Assembly: GCA_025345505.1 (NCBI GenBank) | Contig: JANVCC010000017.1 | Location: 1,430,315 to 1,494,314 of the forward strand | Length of the DNA stretch: 64,000 nt | Direction: 5' to 3' | Source: Todiramphus chloris collaris | Lineage: Eukaryota > Chordata > Aves > Coraciiformes > Alcedinidae | Part shown: one piece after another, positions 49,618 to 61,935 of the stretch | Numbering within the stretch: position 1 is the first letter of the stretch | Layout: every line of letters starts with the position of its first letter | Notes under the pieces: model-generated | Seen by the model: the letters and a program-made list of their open reading frames with translations, nothing else | The model's database searches: none | Told to the model about the DNA's origin: nothing | Translations under genes and position numbers: made by a program

Positions 49618-49639
49618 ATGTGGGTTGATGCAGGGCGAG

Positions 49640-50030
49640 TTGTGGACATTGTCTACCTGGACTTCTCCAAGGCTTTTGACATGGTCCCCCACAGCCTTCT
49701 CCCTAGACAAACCGACACGTTACAACTTAGACAAGTGATCAGTGCACTGGGTGGGGAACTGTCTGACAGGCCTTACCTAGAGGGTGGTAGTAAATAGTTC
49801 TTTCTCAAACTCAAGTGGGGTTCCCCAGGGATCAATATTGTGCCCAACATTGTTTAGTATCTTCATAAGTGATTTGGATGTTGGGATCAAGAGCACCCTG
49901 ATGAAGTCTGCAGATAACACCAAAAGGAGTTGGGAGGTTGACACTCCAGAAGGGAGAGCCACCTTCCAGGAAGACCTGGACAGGCTAGGGAAGTGGGCTA
50001 GCTATGAAGTTCAAGGGAGATAAGAATAAG
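49640..50030 (+). pseudogene. CR1 ORF2 reverse transcriptase remnant (left arm)
   Basis: Motif A reads VVDIVYLDFSKAFDMV with both key residues near 49640-49690. Motif B follows in another frame as SGVPQGSILCPTLFSIFISD (about 49814-49875). Motif C, FADD in active copies, reads SADN near 49908-49920. The right arm has the same SADN. Downstream text EGRATFQEDLDRLGKW is typical CR1. Cut by the LTR insertion at 50064. Confidence 0.87.
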
Positions 50031-50064
50031 GTCATTCATGTGGAAAAATATAACCCAGGAATGT

Positions 50065-50282
50065 TGTGGGATACAGGCTAAGCATTGAGGGAGACACGCT
50101 GAGCAGTTGTCAGGACAGCAGCAATACTCATCTCCACAGAACTGAACCCACAATGAAGAGCAGAATTGAACCTACACCGAAGATGCATCTGAAACTCAAT
50201 ACACCACAAATGGAGCTCGAAGAGGGACCATGGGTCTGAAAAGGCAAAGTCAATCTCAGCAGTGTAGACTCAATACACTGCA
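50065..50282 (+). repeat. 5' LTR region with an internal 74-bp duplication
   Basis: Compared with the right LTR, this copy has two small insertions of about 20 bp each (near 50085-50105 and 50140-50165). The LTR end ACTCAATACAC(C/T)(A/G)CA occurs twice, at 50194-50208 and 50268-50282, each followed by AATGG and similar leader text ending CAATCTCAGCAGTGTAG. So the LTR/leader junction has been tandemly duplicated with a 74-bp period. Confidence 0.75.
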
Positions 50283-50284
50283 AA

Positions 50285-50302
50285 TGGCACCCAGAGTGGG
50301 GC
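50285..50302 (+). other. Probable primer-binding site, tRNA-Lys type
   Basis: TGGCACCCAGAGTGGGGC lies two bases after the second LTR-end copy. By my comparison it matches the complement of the tRNA-Lys(1,2) 3' end at 15 of 18 positions. Used in the past to prime minus-strand synthesis. Confidence 0.7.
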
Positions 50303-50575
50303 CACAGGTCTGAAAAGCTGAACAGACAATCTCAGCAGTGTAGGCTGATTGAACTAATATTGTGGCGGGGAGAGAGCCGGAGACTGTATGGCACAATCAC
50401 CTAAGCAGAGAGGTGATCAATCAAGAACTGTGGAAAGAAGTCTAAGATGGTGCTGGAAGTTTTTAGGGAACTCCTGTAGAAGTATAATTGCTCTAAGGAA
50501 GTATAGCTTAAATCCCTCAGATTATGTTAAACCCTGACACCTGTGCAAATGGGTTCACCTAAACTCAGTCATAAT

Positions 50576-50588
50576 AAGGAAGGGGGAA
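50576..50588 (+). other. Polypurine tract
   Basis: AAGGAAGGGGGAA sits immediately before the TG of the right LTR, the expected position of the plus-strand primer of an LTR retroelement. Confidence 0.8.
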
Positions 50589-50688
50589 TGGTGGGATACA
50601 GGCTGAGCAGTTGTTGGGACAGCAGCAATACTCATCTCTGCAGAACTGAACCTACACCGAAGATGCATCTGAGACTCAATACACTGCA
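50589..50688 (+). repeat. 3' LTR, 100 bp
   Basis: Starts TGGTGGGATACAGG and ends ACACTGCA. Directly followed by the target duplication GAATGC. Confidence 0.8.
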
Positions 50689-50902
50689 GAATGCAGCTCA
50701 GACTGGGATCCACCTGGCTAGAGAGCAGCCCTGTGGAAAAGGCCCTGGGGGTCTTGCTGGACAAGAAGCTCAACATGAGTGAACAGTGTGCTGAAGCTAC
50801 AAAGAAAGCCAATCCAGGATACTGGGTTACATTATCAAGGGCATCAGCAGCAGAGATTAAAAAGTCATTATCCCTCTCTACTCAGCACTGGTCAGACCAT
50901 GC

Positions 50903-51554
50903 AGAATCACAGAATCACAGAATCATTTAGGTTGGAAAAGATCCTTGGGATCATCATGTCCAACCATTAGCCCTACTCTACAAGTTCACCCCTAGGCCAT
51001 ATCCCCCAACACCACAACTAAGTGATGCTTAAACATATCCAGGGATGGTGACTCAACCACCTCCTTGTTTCTCTAAGGATTGAAAACTCAATCATCTCAT
51101 TATCAGTACTCCCTAGACTGCCTCCAACCTTTACTTCCCCCACAAGTTCTTCCCTGTTCACAAGGAGCGTGTCCAGAAGTGCACCTTCCCTGGTTGGCTC
51201 ATTTACCATCTGCGTGAAAAAGTTGTCCTCCACACATTGCACGAACCTCTTGGATTATTCCCTCTCTGCTGTGTTGTATTCCCAGGGGATATCTGGAAGA
51301 TTAAAGTCCTCCACAAGCACAACAGCAAGTGACTGTGAGATTTCTCTCAGCTGCTTATAGAAAGCTTCATTCATCTCACTGCTTTGATTGGGAGGTCTAT
51401 AGCAGACTCCTACAAATATATCAGCTTTATTAGCCCTTAACCTAATCCAAATGGACTCAACCCCATCATCACTATACTTAATTTTTGAGGTCTCAAGACA
51501 TTCTCTAACATATAGAGCCACTCCACCACCCTTCTTCCCTGTCTGTCTCAAAGT
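50903..51554 (-). mobile_element. Nested CR1 with the reverse transcriptase missing
   Basis: A minus-strand CR1 inserted in the left-arm CR1. Its 3' tail (AGAATCACAGAATCACAGAA) and 3' UTR (TTAGGTTGGAAAAGATCC) run from 50903 to about 51065. There the sequence jumps directly into the endonuclease part of ORF2, which continues to about 51554. The whole polymerase domain and the end of ORF2, normally well over 1.5 kb, is absent. The right-arm CR1 has the uninterrupted target (GTCAGACCACAACTTGAG on its own strand), so the two parts inserted together or at least sit in one site. No clear target-site duplication. Confidence 0.87.
51063..51551 (-). pseudogene. CR1 ORF2 endonuclease remnant
   Basis: Two minus-strand frames cover the back half of the apurinic/apyrimidinic-type endonuclease. 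The first (51255-51551) reads GGGVALYVRECL, ESIWIRL, VGVCYRPPNQSSEMNEAFYK and VEDFNLPDIPWEYN. The second (ending near 51063) reads VNEPTREGALLDTLLVNREE and then STDNEMIEFSIL, where active enzymes have the SDH triad residue; here the histidine is asparagine. The frame then runs through the junction into antisense 3' UTR. The N-terminal part with the first catalytic residues is lost. Endonuclease would have nicked the target DNA. Confidence 0.85.
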
Positions 51555-51995
51555 ACACCTTGAGTACTGTGTTCAGTTTTTGTCCCCAATATAGGAAAAA
51601 GATGAGGACAGGCTGGAGAGGGTCCAGAGAAGGGCCACCAGGATGATCAGAAGGCTGGAAGACCTGCCATATGAAGAAAGGCTGAGAAAACCGTGTTTCT
51701 TTAGGCTTGAGAAGAGAAGGCTTAGGGGAGACCTTATTACCATGGGTCAGTACCTAAAAGGTGTCTACCAAGAAGATGGAGACTCCCTTTTTACAAGAAC
51801 TCCCATGGGAAAGACAAGTGGTAATGGGTAAAAGATACTCCAGGGGAGATTCTGACTGGACTCTAGAAGAAAATTTTCACCATGAGTACTATTAGACATT
51901 TGAATAATCTCCCAAGGGAAGTGGTGAATTCCCCTACATTGGACAGTTTTAAGACTCAGCTTGACAGAGTGCTGGGACATCTCATTTAAACTATT

Positions 51996-52141
51996 GCTTC
52001 TTTTTCTTTTTTTTTTCTTTATTTCTTTTTTTTTCTTTTTTTCTTTTTCATTTACTTGTACTTTTTCTTGTTGTTTTTTTTTATTATTATTATTTTTTTT
52101 ATTATTATTATTATTGTTTCTTTTTTTCTTTTTCCTTTTTA
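51996..52141. repeat. T-rich and (ATT)n low-complexity tract inside CR1 3' UTR
   Basis: Long T runs with C interruptions and then ATT/TTA repeats, lying where CR1 normally has a short unique segment between CATCTCATTTA and GGAAAGGTTGGA. It is a microsatellite expansion inside the element. Confidence 0.88.
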
Positions 52142-52497
52142 TTCACCTGGAAAGGTTGGACTAGATGACCCTTGAGGTCCCTTCCAACCTGGTGTTCTAC
52201 ACTTCTATTATTCTGTGAACTTAGCAACATGATAAATTTTGAGATCCAGCAGAAGATTGTTAAGAAACTCATAGTGACCAAAAAAGCTAGCTGGTGGGGC
52301 CTCTTCTACCAAGTGTACCACACTCATGTCTTTTTCCCTGCTCTTTCAGTAATTTTAGATGCTTTCAATTAGAAGATGAATGGTAGAAAGGAATTTCATC
52401 CTAACCAAAGCTGGCATTTAAAAACATCTGGCAGTATGTGTATACAAAATGACTTAAAGAAATGCCTGATATACTTTAAATATTATTTTCCTGTGTG

Positions 52498-52512
52498 TTT
52501 TTTTTTTTTTTT
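52498..52512. repeat. T homopolymer (15)
   Basis: In the right arm the corresponding site reads TTTTCTTTC, so this run accounts for the length difference of the arms. Confidence 0.9.
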
Positions 52513-53042
52513 AATTTGTTTTTCAACTGTGCATCACTGTCTGAATTGACAGTAATTAAGGAATGGAAGATATACAGGGTTGCCAAGCTACTAACTGGGA
52601 GAAACTTGAGAGTCCAGAAGGGAAGATTGAGATGGCCTTGAAGTGTAACTATTGCTTGTGGTGAGTGGAGTTTAGCAGGGAGAAAGTTCTTATGCTTGAA
52701 CAGAATATTCATCTATTTCTCAAGGTTTCTTTCTTGAAACATAATGTGTTTATATAATTTACTAATTTCTTTTTCTCATGATCCATAAATATATGGTGAA
52801 GCTAACAGACCCTGCACTAAAAAATGAAATAAAAAATCTGAAAAGATGGACAATTTCATGCCTATGGGTGCTACTTTTGTAAGTTTTTCTTTCTGAGAAT
52901 GAATTTAATGGGATTTCTGAATATGTGAAGGACTTCTAGGATTTGAGCTTTTCATATAACATGAAAGGAATTATAAATGTTACAAAAATATCCAAATTTT
53001 ATGCTTTGAAGTATGAACTGCTCTGCTCCGCTGTCAACATAC

Positions 53043-53079
53043 TTTTCTTTCTTTTTCTTTTTTTTTTTTTTCTGTTTTT
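53043..53079. repeat. T-rich polypyrimidine tract
   Basis: T runs with scattered C. Confidence 0.85.
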
Positions 53080-54327
53080 CACAACAATTGGTGAAGAGTT
53101 TTTTAAAAAGAATTCTTATCGCCATCATTGTTACAAATTTGCTGTGATCTTGGGACAAATAACATGTTAGAGAAACATGGTTGAGACATATCTTGATCAT
53201 TTCTTGTCAGAAGTAGTTATCCTGTACTAAGTGGAACAAATATGGAGAGCTATAAGCTTAAGGGTTTGGAAGCAGAAAGCATAAAAAATTAGTTTCTCTA
53301 CTTTTGTCACAATGTTCTGCATAACAGAGGAGATATTTCTTTAAGTTCCATGGAAATATCGACTTTATCTAAGCTGTGCAGAATTCTGAAAGATGTTTCA
53401 AAGTAGTTGCACTTAATTTATGTGGCAACAGGGATCCTGCAACAGCTGGACACCATTTTTCAGCAAAATCTATTAAGGCAACACTTTATGTTTAAGTAGG
53501 CTAAACTAGTTTTGTCTCAAACTGGTACAAAGTTCTCACAGAAGGTTCAGGGTCTACTTTGCTGTAATGAGCAAACCTTGGTGATCTATTTAGCAGATTA
53601 AATAGTTTTTAATGGATATAAAATGATCTTTTAAAAGCTTTTTTTTTATTATTTTTTAATATTCTTGTAAACTTAATATATTGCTGACAAAAATAGTTAC
53701 CTAGAGGATAGAAAATCTGTAACTGCAGATTAAAGCCTCTTTTTCTATTAGCCTGATTTGTTTAGATCAACTTTGTTTGACAGACATATTGTACTTCTTG
53801 TTCAGTGTGATGCCTTTCAGAAGCATGAGGAGGTCCACAAATTGATGAGTCATTCTTGCTCAAGATGCTCACATTAGAAAGAATATTTTTATCTCCTTGC
53901 TTTTCCTAATTATATTAGCCAAAGACTAACATACATCATATAACCCTGCTGACTATATTTTTTGAGTGCCTGTTTTCATACTGTACTTAATAATCCTCTC
54001 AAAAAGAAGAAATTATTTTCTAATATTGCTCTTGAAATTTTTCTTTGAAAGTTTTGAATGACTTTCAACTGGTCTCTTAGCTAGCACACTCAATATCCAA
54101 GCACAAGGAAACCTTCAGGTAGAGAAGATGCTTATAGGAACCACAGATGAAAACTTTGTCAGTAATATATTTGAATAGATGAAGGGTTCTCAGAGATTTC
54201 TTGTTTTGTCAGAATATATATTTCCATCGTCCATGTCTACATTTTTCTTCCCTGTGTAACATATTGACACGGATAATGCTTTTAGCATACCATAAAGCCT
54301 AACTTAATACCTATAATGTTTGTTCTG

Positions 54328-54376
54328 GGATGGATGGATGGATGGATGGATGGATGGATGGATGGATGGATGGAAT
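54328..54376. repeat. (GGAT)n tetranucleotide microsatellite
   Basis: About eleven near-perfect GGAT units ending in GGAATGG. Length polymorphism is likely. It creates a spurious open frame with a Met-Asp-Gly-Trp repeat. Confidence 0.95.
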
Positions 54377-57300
54377 GGTGATTTTCTGTTGGTATGTTGG
54401 TTATATTGTAGTCATTATGTCACTTGGGAATAGTTTCCCTCTCTTCAGTTTTAAGGTGCTCATCTTACATTCAGTATTTTATGCTTCACGTGAAGCAGTT
54501 AGAATTCTTTATTAGTTTTCATGAGTGCTTCATTCTACCTGCAGTTTTAATCCACAGGGATGAGTCTGAATCATGATTTACACTACCTGCTAGTAAAACA
54601 GCAGAGCAAAACATGGGACAACCAGGTGAATGTAATATTCTGGATCACATTTAATTCTTGAATATCCTGCAACATTCAAGAGGTAACACTGGATGATCAC
54701 AGAAGTTCTTTCTGGTCACCTTCCCTGTAAAAAATGTTGGGTGGTTTTGCTTCATTCAGCATCATTTTTTCTTTTCCTGTCAGGAAGTCAGGCATGGTGG
54801 GTATTGCTGGCAAAGCTTGAGCTGCTCCTAAGCCAACTAGTGTCCAGTAAATTCATATTTGTAATACTTTAAATTGCTTATTCTTGATAAGTTATGCTTA
54901 GTAAAGGGAAGGCAAAGGATCATTTTTCCTTAGACAGCAAGGGACAAACATTGAATGAAGGCTGGCAAGAAATCCAGAAGGCAATGTTTTTGCAGCCATG
55001 CCCTTTGATGGTAATAGTTTAAGAAAGGCTGAGTTTGATAAGATTTCTGTCTTACCTCTCTTCCCTAGGGAAAAGAAACACTCCTAGGCTAATCCTGCTC
55101 TTATAAGGGTATAACCTATTACTCAGCAAATAGCAAATGATTTACTCCTCTACACCGAATCTAAGTTTGTAAGTGCTACATGTTTACCCTGAGTGTCTCT
55201 GTATAAACTTTTTCACAGAAGAGTAGAAGACAGAGATTATCTTTCAGTAATTCTCTCTGCATAGTGACATGTCCCCAGACAGTAGCCTCTTTCACATGCA
55301 CCTCCCCAGACTCAGTATTACTGAGTTTCAGCTGCTGTTTCAGCATTCTGTTCAGCATTTCACTCACTTATTATTCAGTTCATTTCAGTTCAGCATTTGT
55401 CCTTGATTCACATTTCAAATAGGCACTTAGGTAGTCTTACAGGATATCCTTGGATAACTGATCTATTGAGCTACTTTATGATAAAACAGACAGATGTGAA
55501 TGGATAAAATGATGGACAGTGAGAAAGATACAGATATTTATAGATATGCACTAGGTTCCTTTGTGCAGTTCTATAAGCTGTTAAGAGAAATGAGAGATAA
55601 TAAATATGCTATCATGTCATGTCTGATATTCCAGGAAAATATTCAGCCAGGAACCGTCTTCTGAGATCTCATATTCAAATAGAAACCAACATATTATTGT
55701 AAGTACTTTGTTAGAAAAGTTTTTTCCTCTGATATTTTGATTCCACCTGATGGTAGTCAAGATACTTCCATTAGTAGAACTACGAATATTTATGTATTTA
55801 ATGTATTTTCCATTGTCTATTCCAGTTACAATATGAAAGGTTTGATGTGTTTTCTGACACCTGCTAAAAGCATGTTACAAAGTCAAGCCTTGAGCCTTGG
55901 TGGGACTTTGTGTCCCATCCTACAGTCAATGTCTGATCTGTCTCTGCAATCTTAATTCTGTCCCCTGGGTCTGGTTTGTTTAGTTACATGAAATTACTGC
56001 TCAGGAAGGCAGTGGGGAAATGACATCTTTAAAACACCATGCTGCCAAATAGCTACCTGGCTAGAAGCTGGAACTGAGAAGAGAACAGCTATAAAAGAGA
56101 AGTCTCATCTTTTCCATGGACTGCATGAAAGCAATGTTTGACAGCATAGAAAAAGGGAGCAAGGCTGTCTTGGCAGAACAAGTTGAGGTGTTTTTTAAGG
56201 AAAATCTGCAACACTCATTATTCCCTTAGGAACAAACTATTTAAAATATGCCAGGAAAAACTGCATTTTTTTCCTTCAATTTTTTGTCTGTATAAAACAA
56301 GCCAAACACAAATAAATTAAAGTGAATAGAATCTGCACTCTTCAATTAACATTGAACGTTTTTTCGTGTTTTCGTTTAACAAGTTTTATTCCCTATTAGT
56401 GAATAGCTTCATTACCTTCTTTCTGTTGTTTTGCACTATAATTCTTCATAGTTAAATTGTACAAGGAGAACCTGTCCCACTGCTTTTAGGGACAGGATAA
56501 AATAATATGAACAGCAGGAGCAGCGACAGTTCAATTAGCAACACTGGCAACTTCTTTGGAATGGCAACACTGCTACAGCCAAAGAGCTTGCTGGCACTGA
56601 AGTGTCTCTGTGAGGGGGAAGTGTAGAGCCCTTGCTACAGTATTGTAAATAGCATGACAGACAACAAAATGGGTAACCAAGTTGGGAAGCTGAAAACACA
56701 GTACAAAGCTCTTCCACACTATGGGAGTGTGCTGAAAAATACTTCTTAACAAGAACAGAAGAGTTTGCTAGGCAATATATATCTCATTTGCTGCTTTCGG
56801 TAGATTCATGAAAGTCTGTCTTTTTGTTAGCTTTTCAGATTATTTTTCCTTTTAAACCTGTATGCCTGTAAGTGTGGTTTTGGGGTTTTTTTTAAAGAGT
56901 AGCCAGAACAAGGTTTCTTGTTTTCTTTTATCTCTGTTGTCATTTCCCTCCTTGCTGAATGTATAAATGAATCATGTTTCTAGAGCAACTTCTCAATAAC
57001 ACATCTCCATCAAAGATTTTACTTTAAGAGTAAATACATTTTCAAAATGTCTTTTCATGAGCTAATGTGGTTATGAATGCTAGTCTCAATAGAATTTATA
57101 TGCAGTAATCTGCATAAACAGTCCCAAACTGTATCTCTTACATAATTAATATGTTGACATTTTAGGAGGAAGGAAGGATTATCTTTCTATAAGGCCATAG
57201 TCAGTGAAAACAATTTTAGGCTCCATTTCCAGCTCCTACTCATGATTCCCATTGAATGTCAATCTTTGTGCCTCTATTTTTTAAGCAGTGAGTTTTAAAA

Positions 57301-60300
57301 TAATTTTTAAATTCTTTGTTGTTGGAAGGTAAATTTCACATTTTTTAAGTTGTCCATATAGTATAGCAATCAGTAACAAAGAAGAGTTTTAAAAAGCTGT
57401 GTCTCACCTCCTCAAAGGGATGAAAACACATAAAAATTCAATTCCTCCAAGTCCTCTAAAACTTTCTGAATTCTGTTGTCTGTCCTGACAAAAAGGTCTA
57501 AAATGTGGCCTGCACCAGCATGACTTCAAATAGGAATGCCATCTTCAGACATTCTGCAGTTTGTATCATCTACTTCCATACAAAGTGGAATGTTGATAGG
57601 GGACATGAATGCCCAAAGTTGTTGCTTAGGAAGAATAAGGAATTTTAACTGATCACAAGATGGGATGTTAAAAGCATTTAATAAAACTTTTTTTACAAAT
57701 GCTAATCAGTCTTCTTTGCTCTAATTGACTATTTTCACATTTCAGCAGTAGATTTAATTCTGCCAAATAAGTTACAAAATAAGTCATAATCTACATCTCT
57801 GTGTTAGAATATTATGTAAGACAATGAAAGCTTATTTGGGAGAGAACAAAGTGAGTGGGCTTTTTTTTTAATTAGTACTTTTCTAAATGGGATATGAGTT
57901 AGGCAGAAAATGAAAGTTTAGAGATAACATTTACAGTAGAAATTCACTTTTACAAGTGAAAGGTTATTTGTTTCTGAAAATTACTTTCAGACAAGATTTA
58001 GCTCTACATCACTGCCATCTGGAATACAGAATGCAGTATAAACTGTGGAATTGTATTATGATTGATTCTTTCCATAGAGGATAGCATTTAACTTACCGAA
58101 TTTTATGGTTCAAAGTTACTGCAATAAAAAATCTACAGTTAGCAACAGTTACCACAAAAAGTAACTTCATTCATGCTAATTTCAAGAAGTATTTTCAAAA
58201 ATTATTGACATCTCTGTTAAGTGTATGCTGTAATTGTAAGGTACTGTTGAATCTTGTGGTGGTGACTACTGTACTGCTTTCAGTATGGACTTTCAGGTAG
58301 TTAAAAGGTTAAAAACAAATGTAGAGGAAAATGAGAATTCCTTTGCCTTGAAGGAAGTGTTGTTCATTCCTTCTAATTACAGGGCTGTGACACATGGAGT
58401 TTTTGAGATAATCAATACTTTGAAAACTTTGTGCTGTTTTATCATCTGAGACTCATGAAAAATTAACAATTTTTACCAGCATCTGAATCACATCAATAGT
58501 TAAGGTTACAAATTGTTGCTATTTGACAGATCATTTTATTACACAGGTAAAATTTTGGGGCTACATGTGTTGTAAGATCTTACTCTGGGTGAACTGAGAA
58601 TTGCAGATAATAAAATATTTATAGTGCCTGAATGGAAGGGATTCAGGTTACTCTCTTGCTCTAGGAAAGATTGATTTGAGATGTTCAGAGTAACCCTTTG
58701 TGACTTAATTCACTGTTATAGGGCACACCTATCCCAAACAGAACCTATCTGTAATATAAAAAGATATTATTTACAGATACATATTTGTCCAGAAACCAAT
58801 ACTCCATACTTTAAAAGGCTTTGATGGGGAGATACACAAAAAGTCTCTATGGATAAAGCTTGGCCTTAGAATTTGGGCTTTGAGTCCTGTTTGTAGGCTC
58901 AACATTTTATTTCTTCCTTTAGATAGGTGATATCAAAGCTTCTTGTCACAGAATTCAGTAACAGACATGAGATTAATAAGATGCCACCTATGCTCATGTG
59001 TTTCCCTGTGTTCCCATTGCAGGTTCCAGCAACTTTGGTCAAGACATGCTCTTAGAGTCCTCATCAAAATGAAGTTCAGATATTCCCACAGTGGCAAGCA
59101 ATTCTACATATGTGCTGAACACAGCTGGGTACCTACATCTTATTGCCTTTATATATATAGTCTACAGTCAATTTATTGCAGTGGTTAGGTCATTAAGGTA
59201 ATCAAAGGGAAGCAAAACAAAGCAACAGTTTTGAGGTTAGCTGAAATATTTTCATCCTGAAATGTGGGTGGTTACACCAGTATAGAAAACTGATGTTTGG
59301 CCACTTTTTTTGAATGCTCATACAGATGTGTGTAGTAGGAGCTGCAGGGTTTGTTTCTCTTGTTTACCATCTTCCTTTTGTTTTACTTAGTCTTTTAGGA
59401 AGAGGGAAAATGATGGAGTGACAATGCTGCTTTTGTACAAAACTACAAATTTGTATGTGATCTGATGAAAAGATCTTGACAGTGATAGTAAAAATACGTA
59501 TGTATTAAAAATTCAAGATAAAGGAGAAAAAAGACTTTTTGTTTCAAGAATTAGTGAAAGGAAAACAAATGCAAGAAATAGAAACTAAAATGGCAAACCT
59601 GGGATTTTAATACACCATTGAGACCTGTGAATTGACTTAAAAGCTCAAATGCAAGCAACTAGTCAGTTGTTTCCTAATTCTAAAAGAGATTTTAAGGTAA
59701 AGGCAAGAGGGAAATTACATTAACAGGCTCATTCCCTTTAAACACATGAAGAGAAGATTTTATGATCTGGTACAGGTATGGCGCATATCTTATCAGTCTG
59801 TAGTCACTTATAATGTTTCTAATACCTTTAATATACATTGCCTACCTTCTACTTAATTTTCTTCTGTGGATGAAGAAAAACCTCTTTCATTGACAGAAAA
59901 AAAGAATCATTTTCATGATTCAAGGATATTACAATTATTTATATCTATCTATATATATCTCCCTTAAGTTTAACTTCCCTCCATAAATAAAAAAAGGAAA
60001 ACCAACAAAAATCAAGATTTGTAGTCACTAGGGCAGCATAAGAATATTTTCCAGAAGACTTAGATCTACTCTAATTACTGCCAGGGGCTAGTAAATGCCT
60101 TTAGGGAAATCACCTTGCAGTCACTCTCCTTATGTATGAAGTGCTATCACAGCTGCTGCTGAGAAGTTCCATATGATGCAAGTAACATTTTATTAACACA
60201 TACACACTGTTCAAATGAGGGTGACAAAATTAAGTTTTGAAACTATTTTCTAGGACTCTTTTCTGCCTTAGTAGACTATTCTAATACTGACAGAACAAAA

Positions 60301-60930
60301 GGAAAAGACTACCCAAGCAAAACAAGTGACCATAATGTCATTATACATTAACAAATATGACCCTTCATTAACTTAACACTAATATAATGGGAAAGATATA
60401 CAGATCATCAATGTTAAATTTATTTTGCAGGTCTTGCAATTTGAAAGTACAAAAAAATATTAATTACGCTCAACTGAAAATTTGGTAATGGCTAATGACC
60501 ACAAAGGCAAAGAATTAGAATCATAGAATACCAGGTTGCTCTTCAAGGCCATCTCAGTCTTCCCTTCTGGACTCTCAAGATTCTCCCAGTTAGTAGCTTG
60601 CCAACCCTGTATATCTTCCATTCCTTAATTACTGTCAATTCAGACAGTGATGCACAGTTGAAAAACAAATGAAAGAAAACACACAGGAAAATAATATTTA
60701 AAGTATATCAGGCATTTCTTTAAGTCATTTTGTATACACATACTGCCAGATGTTTTTAAATGCCAGCTTTGGTTAGGATGAAATTCCTTTCTACCATTCA
60801 TCTTCTAATTGAAAGCATCTAAAATTACTGAAAGAGCAGGGAAAAAGACATGAGTGTGGTACACTTGGTAGAAGAGGCCCCACCAGCTAGCTTTTTTGGT
60901 CACTATGAGTTTCTTAACAATAAAATAATT

Positions 60931-60955
60931 TAAATAAATAAATAAATAAATAAAT
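60931..60955. repeat. (AAAT)n microsatellite
   Basis: About six AAAT units in the unmatched patch of the right arm. Confidence 0.9.
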
Positions 60956-60978
60956 GATTAAAAACACAACAAAGCAAA

Positions 60979-60997
60979 CCCCCCCCCCCCAAAAAAA
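60979..60997. repeat. C12 A7 double homopolymer
   Basis: Twelve C followed by seven A. Long C runs are rare in this window and are error-prone in sequencing, so the exact length is doubtful. Confidence 0.85.
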
Positions 60998-61451
60998 GAA
61001 CCCAATAGTTTAAATGAGATGTCCCAGCACTCTGTCAAGCTGAGTCTTAAAACTGTCCAATGTAGGGGAATTCACCACTTCCCTTGGGAGATTATTCAAA
61101 TGTCTAATAGTACTCATGGTGAAAATTTTCTTCTAGAGTCCAGTCAGAATCTCCCCTGGAGTATCTTTTACCCATTACCACTTGTCTTTCCCATGGGAGT
61201 TCTTGTAAAAAGGGAGTCTCCATCTTCTTGGTAGACACCTTTTAGGTACTGACCCATGGTAATAAGGTCTCCCCTAAGCCTTCTCTTCTCAAGCCTAAAG
61301 AAACACGGTTTTCTCAGCCTTTCTTCATATGGCAGGTCTTCCAGCCTTCTGATCATCCTGGTGGCCCTTCTCTGGACCCTCTCCAGCCTGTCCTCATCTT
61401 TTTCCTATATTGGGGACAAAAACTGAACACAGTACTCAAGTTGTGGTCTGA

Positions 61452-61875
61452 CTAGTGGTGAGTAGAGTGGGATAATGACTTCTTCATCTCTGCTGCTGAT
61501 GCCCTTGTTAATGCAACCCAGTATCCTGGATTGGCTTTCTTTGCAGCTTCAGCACACTGTTCACTCATGTTGAGCTTCTTGTCCACCAAGACCCCCAGGG
61601 CCTTTTCCACAGTGCTGCTCTCTAGCCATGTAGATACCAGTCTGAGCTGCATTCCTGGGTTATATTTTTCCACATGCATGACCTTAGTCTTGTCTCCCTT
61701 GAACTTCATAACTAGCCCACTTCCCTAGCCCGTCCAGGTCTTCCTGGAAGGTGGCTCTCCCTTCTGGAGTGTCAACATCCCCACTCCTTTTGGTGTTATC
61801 TGCAGACTTCATCAGGGTGCTCTTGATCCTAACATCCAAATTACTTATGAAGATATTAAACAATGTTGGGCCCAA
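61452..61875 (-). pseudogene. CR1 ORF2 reverse transcriptase remnant (right arm)
   Basis: Minus-strand frames give MGPTLFNIFISNLDVRIKST (end of motif B region), then SADN in place of FADD, and EGRATFQEDLDGLGKW. The next frame (61452-61709) gives [40 protein letters not shown]. The same derived SADN is in the left arm, so both copies come from the same subfamily or from one duplicated element. Motif A is lost by 5' truncation. Confidence 0.87.
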
Positions 61876-61935
61876 TATTGATCCCTGGAGGACTCCAGTT
61901 GTGACTGCTTGCCAGTTTGAGAAAGAGTTGCTACG

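Follow-up and report, generated by a model that had tools for sequence, protein, structure and literature searches.

A probable two-sided gene conversion tract between facing CR1 copies in Todiramphus chloris collaris, probably preceded by an older inverted copying

The arms of palindromes and of inverted segmental duplications undergo arm-to-arm gene conversion, and a one-sided homologous invasion can be finished by end joining. In PMC6598467, which cites Aleshin and Zhi, non-allelic conversion rates are described as raised for copies less than 10 kb apart, and in PMC3924818 most estimates of conversion tracts run from 50 to several hundred bp. The present locus lies in the genome of Todiramphus chloris collaris (1.17 Gb in 889 contigs), in a window of 64,000 nt on contig C6 (1430315-1494314), the window being the whole stretch of DNA that was analysed. 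It consists of two facing fragments of an element which we take to be CR1 (the name follows the initial annotation of the sequence): a left arm (L, 49799-52643, plus strand) and a right arm (R, 61926-60541, minus strand; all coordinates are those of the window). The arms, about 1.4 kb long, appear as five pieces when the window is compared with itself and are separated by a spacer of about 8 kb; this spacing fits known conversion, since the copies lie within the distance of less than 10 kb given in PMC6598467. Between these paralogous copies we found a bounded patch of raised identity, most likely a tract of interlocus gene conversion. We consider it probable that the locus results from two events, an old inverted copying of CR1 together with its flank and a recent conversion between the facing arms.

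The stretch L51559-51996 is the exact reverse complement of R61440-61003, over 438 bp and with no indel. In total, L and R differ at 32 of 1271 alignable columns, a count that excludes the unalignable block described below, the poly-T L52498-52513, L50059-50063, and also the pair L49799-49811 / R61902-61926, in which L has a 12-bp gap. Outside the tract, 15 differences fall in the 247 columns of L49812-50058 and 13 in the 210 columns of L50689-50898 / R61654-61445, giving 28/457 for the outer CR1 part overall. The CR1 3' body shows a single difference in 442 columns, at L51558/R61441. The homology overruns CR1 into about 390 bp of 3' flank, where the first piece shows 0/242 differences and the last piece 3/130, all three in the final 61 columns. 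The longest identical run spans 749 of the 1271 columns, compared with a maximum of 442 in 100,000 permutations. The outer part (28/457) differs from the tract (0/749) with a Fisher P of 9e-13, and the last 61 columns (3/61) differ from the tract (P=4e-4) but not from the outer part (P=1.0). The divergence profile runs from high to zero and back to high, and the tract is bounded at both sides.

The initial annotation had counted about 14 differences in about 210 bp followed by 438 identical bp without indels, and had described a sharp step instead of a smooth profile. Indeed, the 13/210 columns and the single difference at L51558/R61441 account for its count, and both the exact identity and the step were recovered; the extent was underestimated, because the converted region is longer than 438 bp and runs into the flank. 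The step is not contiguous in L: a 655-bp L-only CR1 (50900-51554) lies between its two sides, and the outer tract edge (L51559/R61440) is at most 4 bp from it. The outer part is itself split in L by a second L-only insertion of 625 bp (50064-50688). Two low-complexity stretches inside the tract do differ, a T-rich block and the poly-T L52498-52513.

Changes shared by the arms or private to one of them were counted against other genomic copies of the element. The reference set held 28 copies, after removal of duplicate projections (8 of 36 loci), and L50059-50063 was likewise dropped from the joined left copy; the copies were picked by likeness to R, so small differences in counts are not interpreted. 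In the outer part (469 sites) we counted 31 derived changes common to both arms, 13 seen only in L, 12 only in R and 3 sites differing in both; in the inner part (439 sites) the counts were 38 shared, none private to L and one private to R. This sole inner change lies at 61441, just outside the identical run, and no mutation private to either arm falls inside it. The ratio of shared to private changes is 31:31 outside and 38:0 inside (P=1.2e-8; sites changed in both arms are counted once per arm and 61441 is left out). A repeat with 43 copies, in which inner-part matches were added, 9 of 28 loci removed as duplicate projections and near-twins (95% or more identical to a copy in the set) left out (47 to 43), gave 30 shared, 13 L-private, 12 R-private and 3 differing in both for the outer part and 38, 0, 1 and 0 for the inner part. 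When only rare changes were considered (at most 5% of the other copies in the 43-copy set), the shared, L-private and R-private counts were 10, 8 and 8 outside and 25, 0 and 1 inside, the 25 rare shared changes inside being somewhat above the 18 per arm outside. The distance from the subfamily consensus is similar in the two parts, 8.7-8.9% inside and 9.8-10.0% outside. Thus, neither low mutation of the inner part nor constraint explains the patch; changes private to one arm gave way there to shared ones.

Both arms derive from one locus, flank included, and form an inverted segmental duplication. This common origin follows because the flank has no other long match and because the outer CR1 part carries about 30 shared derived changes. 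The only long genome matches of the shared 3' flank are the two arms: a query with 52200-52700 returned three matches, namely itself, R at 96% identity and, at another place, a stretch of 45 bp at 87%. No close third copy, and hence no donor at a third locus, was found when 40 of 6509, 1929 and 4537 candidates were scored for the whole right CR1, its outer part and its inner part, respectively. Within these scored sets the nearest other copy was at most 86% identical to the whole right CR1, 86% to the outer part and 89% (by BLAST) to the inner part. For the nearest copy other than the arms, the projected alignment gave 88% in both parts, as against 94% (outer) and 99.8% (inner) between L and R. 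A relative could escape the scored sets, but a near-identical third copy should rank high, and its absence is supported to that extent.

The two ends of R bear on how this arm arose. In R, the copied flank ends beside a 23-bp CR1 3' terminus (60516-60538), which is matched nowhere else in the window when up to 3 mismatches are allowed, and not once in 100 shuffles. After exclusion of 2 copies that stop short of the 3' end, 26 genomic copies remain; 17 of them carry a version with 1-3 mismatches, none of them exact, and in the other 9 it is missed at up to 3 mismatches. The R tail was not copied from the matching place in L, because L's own tail precedes the flank; R is also 5'-truncated at a point where L continues. 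This suggests that R held its own CR1, and that a break there was repaired by invasion of the facing CR1. The presence of a CR1 at R before the copying is possible. The first 60 bp of R (61926-61866) contain no shared derived change and are uninformative on this point. The CR1 sequence upstream of 61926 is missing in R, though present in most other copies; among the 39 other matches listed, 33 start at the truncation point (61926, query position 5) and the rest at positions 2-10. Sequence similar to L49618-49798 sits upstream of the matched part in most of the other genomic copies printed, and a match to RVT_1 below its curated cut-off was found in the stretch next to it.

The L-only insertions bear on the order of events. 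The nested 655-bp CR1 is 5'-truncated in its endonuclease domain and has its 3' tail at 50900. Its relatives reach 93% identity over query 14-500 among the matches scored, and it differs from a local consensus of 7 distinct copies (9 loci taken) at 25/487 sites, or 5.1%, the 7 copies themselves differing at 10-20/487. In comparison, the outer part has accumulated about 3.2-3.4% private change per arm since the copying, and the upper 95% bound for the tract (0/749) is 0.4%. With a divergence of 5.1% against 0/749, the nested CR1 appears older than the conversion; judged from these distances it was probably inserted before, being much older than the tract, and L probably already carried the 655-bp heterology when the conversion took place. 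That the nested insertion followed the copying is indicated by the empty site kept in R and not by the dates.

The 625-bp insertion is a low-copy dispersed repeat resembling a long terminal repeat (LTR). Related sequence occurs at each of its ends, and 79-bp repeats lie inside it. Its edges in L carry a short direct repeat, GAATG, and its terminal direct repeats are imperfect. Of 48 first-look candidates in the genome 40 were scored; the best other copy was only 84% identical, over query 23-621, and no age estimate was obtained for this insertion.

Avian substitution rates are near 2e-9 per site per year. At this rate the copying would date to about 15 million years ago and the conversion to less than about 1 million years, figures that are only indicative.

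All together, these results suggest the following scenario. First, an inverted copy of the left CR1 body with about 390 bp of 3' flank would have arisen at a site about 9 kb from the original. The likeliest route would be a break in a facing right CR1, one end of which invaded the left CR1 by homology. Synthesis would then have run through the left CR1 into the flank, and the new strand would have been joined to the tail of the right CR1 at a short homology (near CCTTGA / AAC). Between the two events each arm would have acquired about 3% private changes, while L gained the LTR-like repeat and the nested CR1. Last, non-crossover gene conversion between the facing arms, of the synthesis-dependent strand annealing type, would have homogenised a stretch of about 0.8-1 kb that starts at L51559/R61440 and ends within L52498-L52582. 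At the outer edge, heteroduplex or branch migration may have stopped at the 655-bp insertion; the position of the edge fits such an arrest at a heterology, in this single case. The initial annotation had excluded two independent CR1 insertions and read the locus as an inverted duplication with a conversion tract, and the shared derived changes, the flank matching only the arms, the lack of private mutations inside and the two edges support it. It had proposed one event, conversion or template switch; the conversion stands, but there were probably two events, an older copying and then the conversion.

The tract includes a block, L51997-52255 and R60922-61002, in which the arms cannot be aligned. 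The junction of the R block fits a deletion between two ATTGTT copies of L (52113 and 52256), and among the genomic copies printed the AT/T-rich spacer varies in sequence and length. The simplest reading is that the block was altered after the conversion, an alternative being two tracts, one on each side of it. The R block also contains a run of 12 G (minus strand) at 60979-60990, with none seen in the L block; such a homopolymer is unusual amid a converted region.

Several points weigh against the two-event history. The inner edge of the tract rests on 3 differences, and the tract contains the unalignable block of 259 bp in L and 81 bp in R. With its 0.8-1 kb, the tract reaches or exceeds the top of most quoted length estimates. 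The nested CR1, which this history places after the copying, is more diverged (5.1%) than L has changed privately since then (3.4%; 25/487 against 16/469), although not significantly so (P=0.20). Last, a possible 6-bp repeat, AGCAAC, at the two junctions of R would fit insertion with target duplication rather than repair into a CR1 on the right.

Among the alternatives, the one that survives best, though we regard it as unlikely, is a single recent template switch that took the inner part and the flank from L to R, the similarity of the outer part stemming from an earlier, separate exchange. The copied flank of R does abut a foreign CR1 tail, with short homology at the junction, as expected of such a switch, and error-prone synthesis at the end of the tract could mimic the 3/61 divergence. 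Taken at face value, the contrast between 3/61 and 0/749 (P=4e-4) suggests instead that the flank has been in R since an older date.

An artefact of assembly or polishing, in which about 1 kb of one arm was overwritten with the sequence of the other, is less probable still. The perfect identity, and an edge located at a structural difference, are what such an error might produce; however, the window contains no N throughout and its host contig C6 is 38.7 Mb long. Moreover, the T-rich blocks and poly-T lengths differ inside the tract, whereas an assembler that copied one arm would probably have made these alike as well, and with arms 94% alike outside it most reads should separate them.

It is very improbable that R arose by retroposition, the CR1 reverse transcriptase (RT) copying a read-through transcript of the left element, jumping to a CR1 tail as template and inserting the product at the right site. 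The 5' truncation of R, its end in a CR1 tail and the possible AGCAAC repeat agree with this route, but in a genome of 1.17 Gb only coincidence would bring the copy down about 9 kb from its source, and retroposition covers the older event only, leaving the recent identity step unexplained. Two independent insertions of one CR1 subfamily, with no copying between them, are barely credible: the 5' truncation points differ and R has a separate CR1 tail, but as a sole explanation they are contradicted by the approximately 30 derived changes that the arms share in their outer part, by 94% identity between L and R against at most 88% to any of the 28 other copies, and by the shared flank. We also rejected an ectopic replacement of either arm's outer part by another CR1, as the private changes are evenly split (13 against 12). 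The notion that no conversion occurred and that the inner part is constrained or slow to mutate has next to no probability, being contradicted by the distances from the subfamily consensus, with a longest inner sense-strand stop-to-stop frame of 78 aa (frames of at least 70 aa listed).

Features of the left (L) and right (R) arms of the facing CR1 pair, in window coordinates
Feature	Coordinates	Strand	Remarks
Left CR1, 5'-ward part	49618-49798	+	Without counterpart in R; start approximate (initial annotation and by eye)
L outer CR1 segment 1	49799-50063	+	Approximately 94% identity with R61650-61926; a gap of 12 bp close to the start
L-only insertion, LTR-like	50064-50688	+	625 bp; empty site kept in R
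L outer CR1 segment 2	50689-50898	+	94% identical to R61445-61654
L-only nested CR1, other subfamily	50900-51554	-	655 bp; empty site kept in R
L CR1 3' body	51555-51996	+	Tract part 1 starts at 51559
L conversion tract part 1, CR1 3' body	51559-51996	+	438 bp, equal to R61003-61440
L T-rich unstable block	51997-52255	+	Comprises CR1 3' tail and approximately 37 bp of flank; replaced by 81 bp in R
L conversion tract part 2, flank	52256-52582	+	Equal to R60921-60602 except poly-T 52498-52513
L inner end of shared flank	52583-52643	+	Diverged again, 3/61
R inner end of shared flank	60541-60601	-	Diverged
R conversion tract part 2	60602-60921	-	Column comparison with L
R T/G-rich block, unalignable	60922-61002	-	81 bp
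R conversion tract part 1	61003-61440	-	438 bp
R outer CR1 part	61445-61926	-	5'-truncated at 61926, where L continues
CR1 3' terminal tail in R	60516-60539	-	Directly after copied flank; L has unrelated sequence there

The assignment to CR1, a long interspersed element, is backed by the 5'-truncated copies, by a 3' terminus common to the genomic copies (the 17 of 26 within 3 mismatches given above) and by relatives of the endonuclease and RT (RVT_1 with E=0.003 and 0.0015, and endonuclease Pfam matches), all of these matches being below the curated cut-offs. An Rfam scan of the window at gathering scores gave no match, and no solved structure matched the endonuclease fragment of the nested CR1. 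In this nested copy the endonuclease part is joined directly to the CR1 3' tail and the RT region is missing; the 39 matches listed besides itself span only about query 14-510 of 671, and the internal deletion may be private to this copy. Many candidates for the 625-bp repeat match only its first approximately 145 or 220 bases, or its last approximately 100.

The genome searches also brought up features of the assembly. Contigs C2 (14,124,950 bp) and C3 (14,119,577 bp) carry many CR1 matches at nearly equal coordinates, among them the pair L026/L030, which is 98% identical; the assembly seems to have retained both haplotypes, or both homologues, of a single chromosome. One such same-position pair was seen on contigs C12 and C13 too. 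Three CR1 copies on small contigs (L016, L018 and L021, on C352, C255 and C482) are 96-98% identical to one another and probably represent a recent segmental duplication or an unplaced repeat block.

The locus provides an internally controlled example in which old divergence, recent homogenisation and an edge at a datable insertion stand within about 1.3 kb of aligned sequence. Such pairs bias the dating of repeats and phylogenies built on retroelement copies. With its arms facing each other at a distance of 8 kb, the pair would also be a candidate for recurrent inversion of its spacer. A more specific proposal, which we put forward tentatively and hold to be doubtful, is that R records two generations of repair: flank would have been dragged into a facing CR1 and sealed at its tail, and a later conversion would have used that flank homology and been cut off exactly at the nested CR1 of L. 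If this were general, retroelement pairs would bootstrap a recombination substrate beyond the element itself, and later insertions would set the boundaries of conversion. Among the titles and abstract openings listed, none described conversion between CR1 copies that face each other, and a report may still exist in print.

The process itself is already well known, and the locus is a good member of interlocus gene conversion. It resembles conversion between dispersed repeats such as Alu elements less than 10 kb apart (PMC6598467, PMC3924818) in its patch of near-zero divergence, in edges that lie inside the homology, in the short distance and in a tract of several hundred bp to 1 kb. Unlike that type, it involves inverted fragments of a LINE (CR1), has one edge at an insertion, and runs past the element into a flank shared through older copying. 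With palindromes it has in common inverted arms and recent arm-to-arm homogenisation; here, however, the arms measure about 1.4 kb, are 6% diverged in their outer part and are held about 8 kb apart, and homogenisation is confined to one bounded tract instead of being arm-wide. The proposed older event resembles one-sided invasion finished by end joining. It also resembles microhomology-mediated break-induced replication and synthesis-dependent microhomology-mediated end joining (PMC7407515). In all of these, copying starts in homology, overruns into flank and ends at a short homology, whereas here only the footprint left in the sequence is seen. What is slightly unusual is a bounded tract that crosses the end of the element into flank copied earlier, with an edge at a datable insertion.

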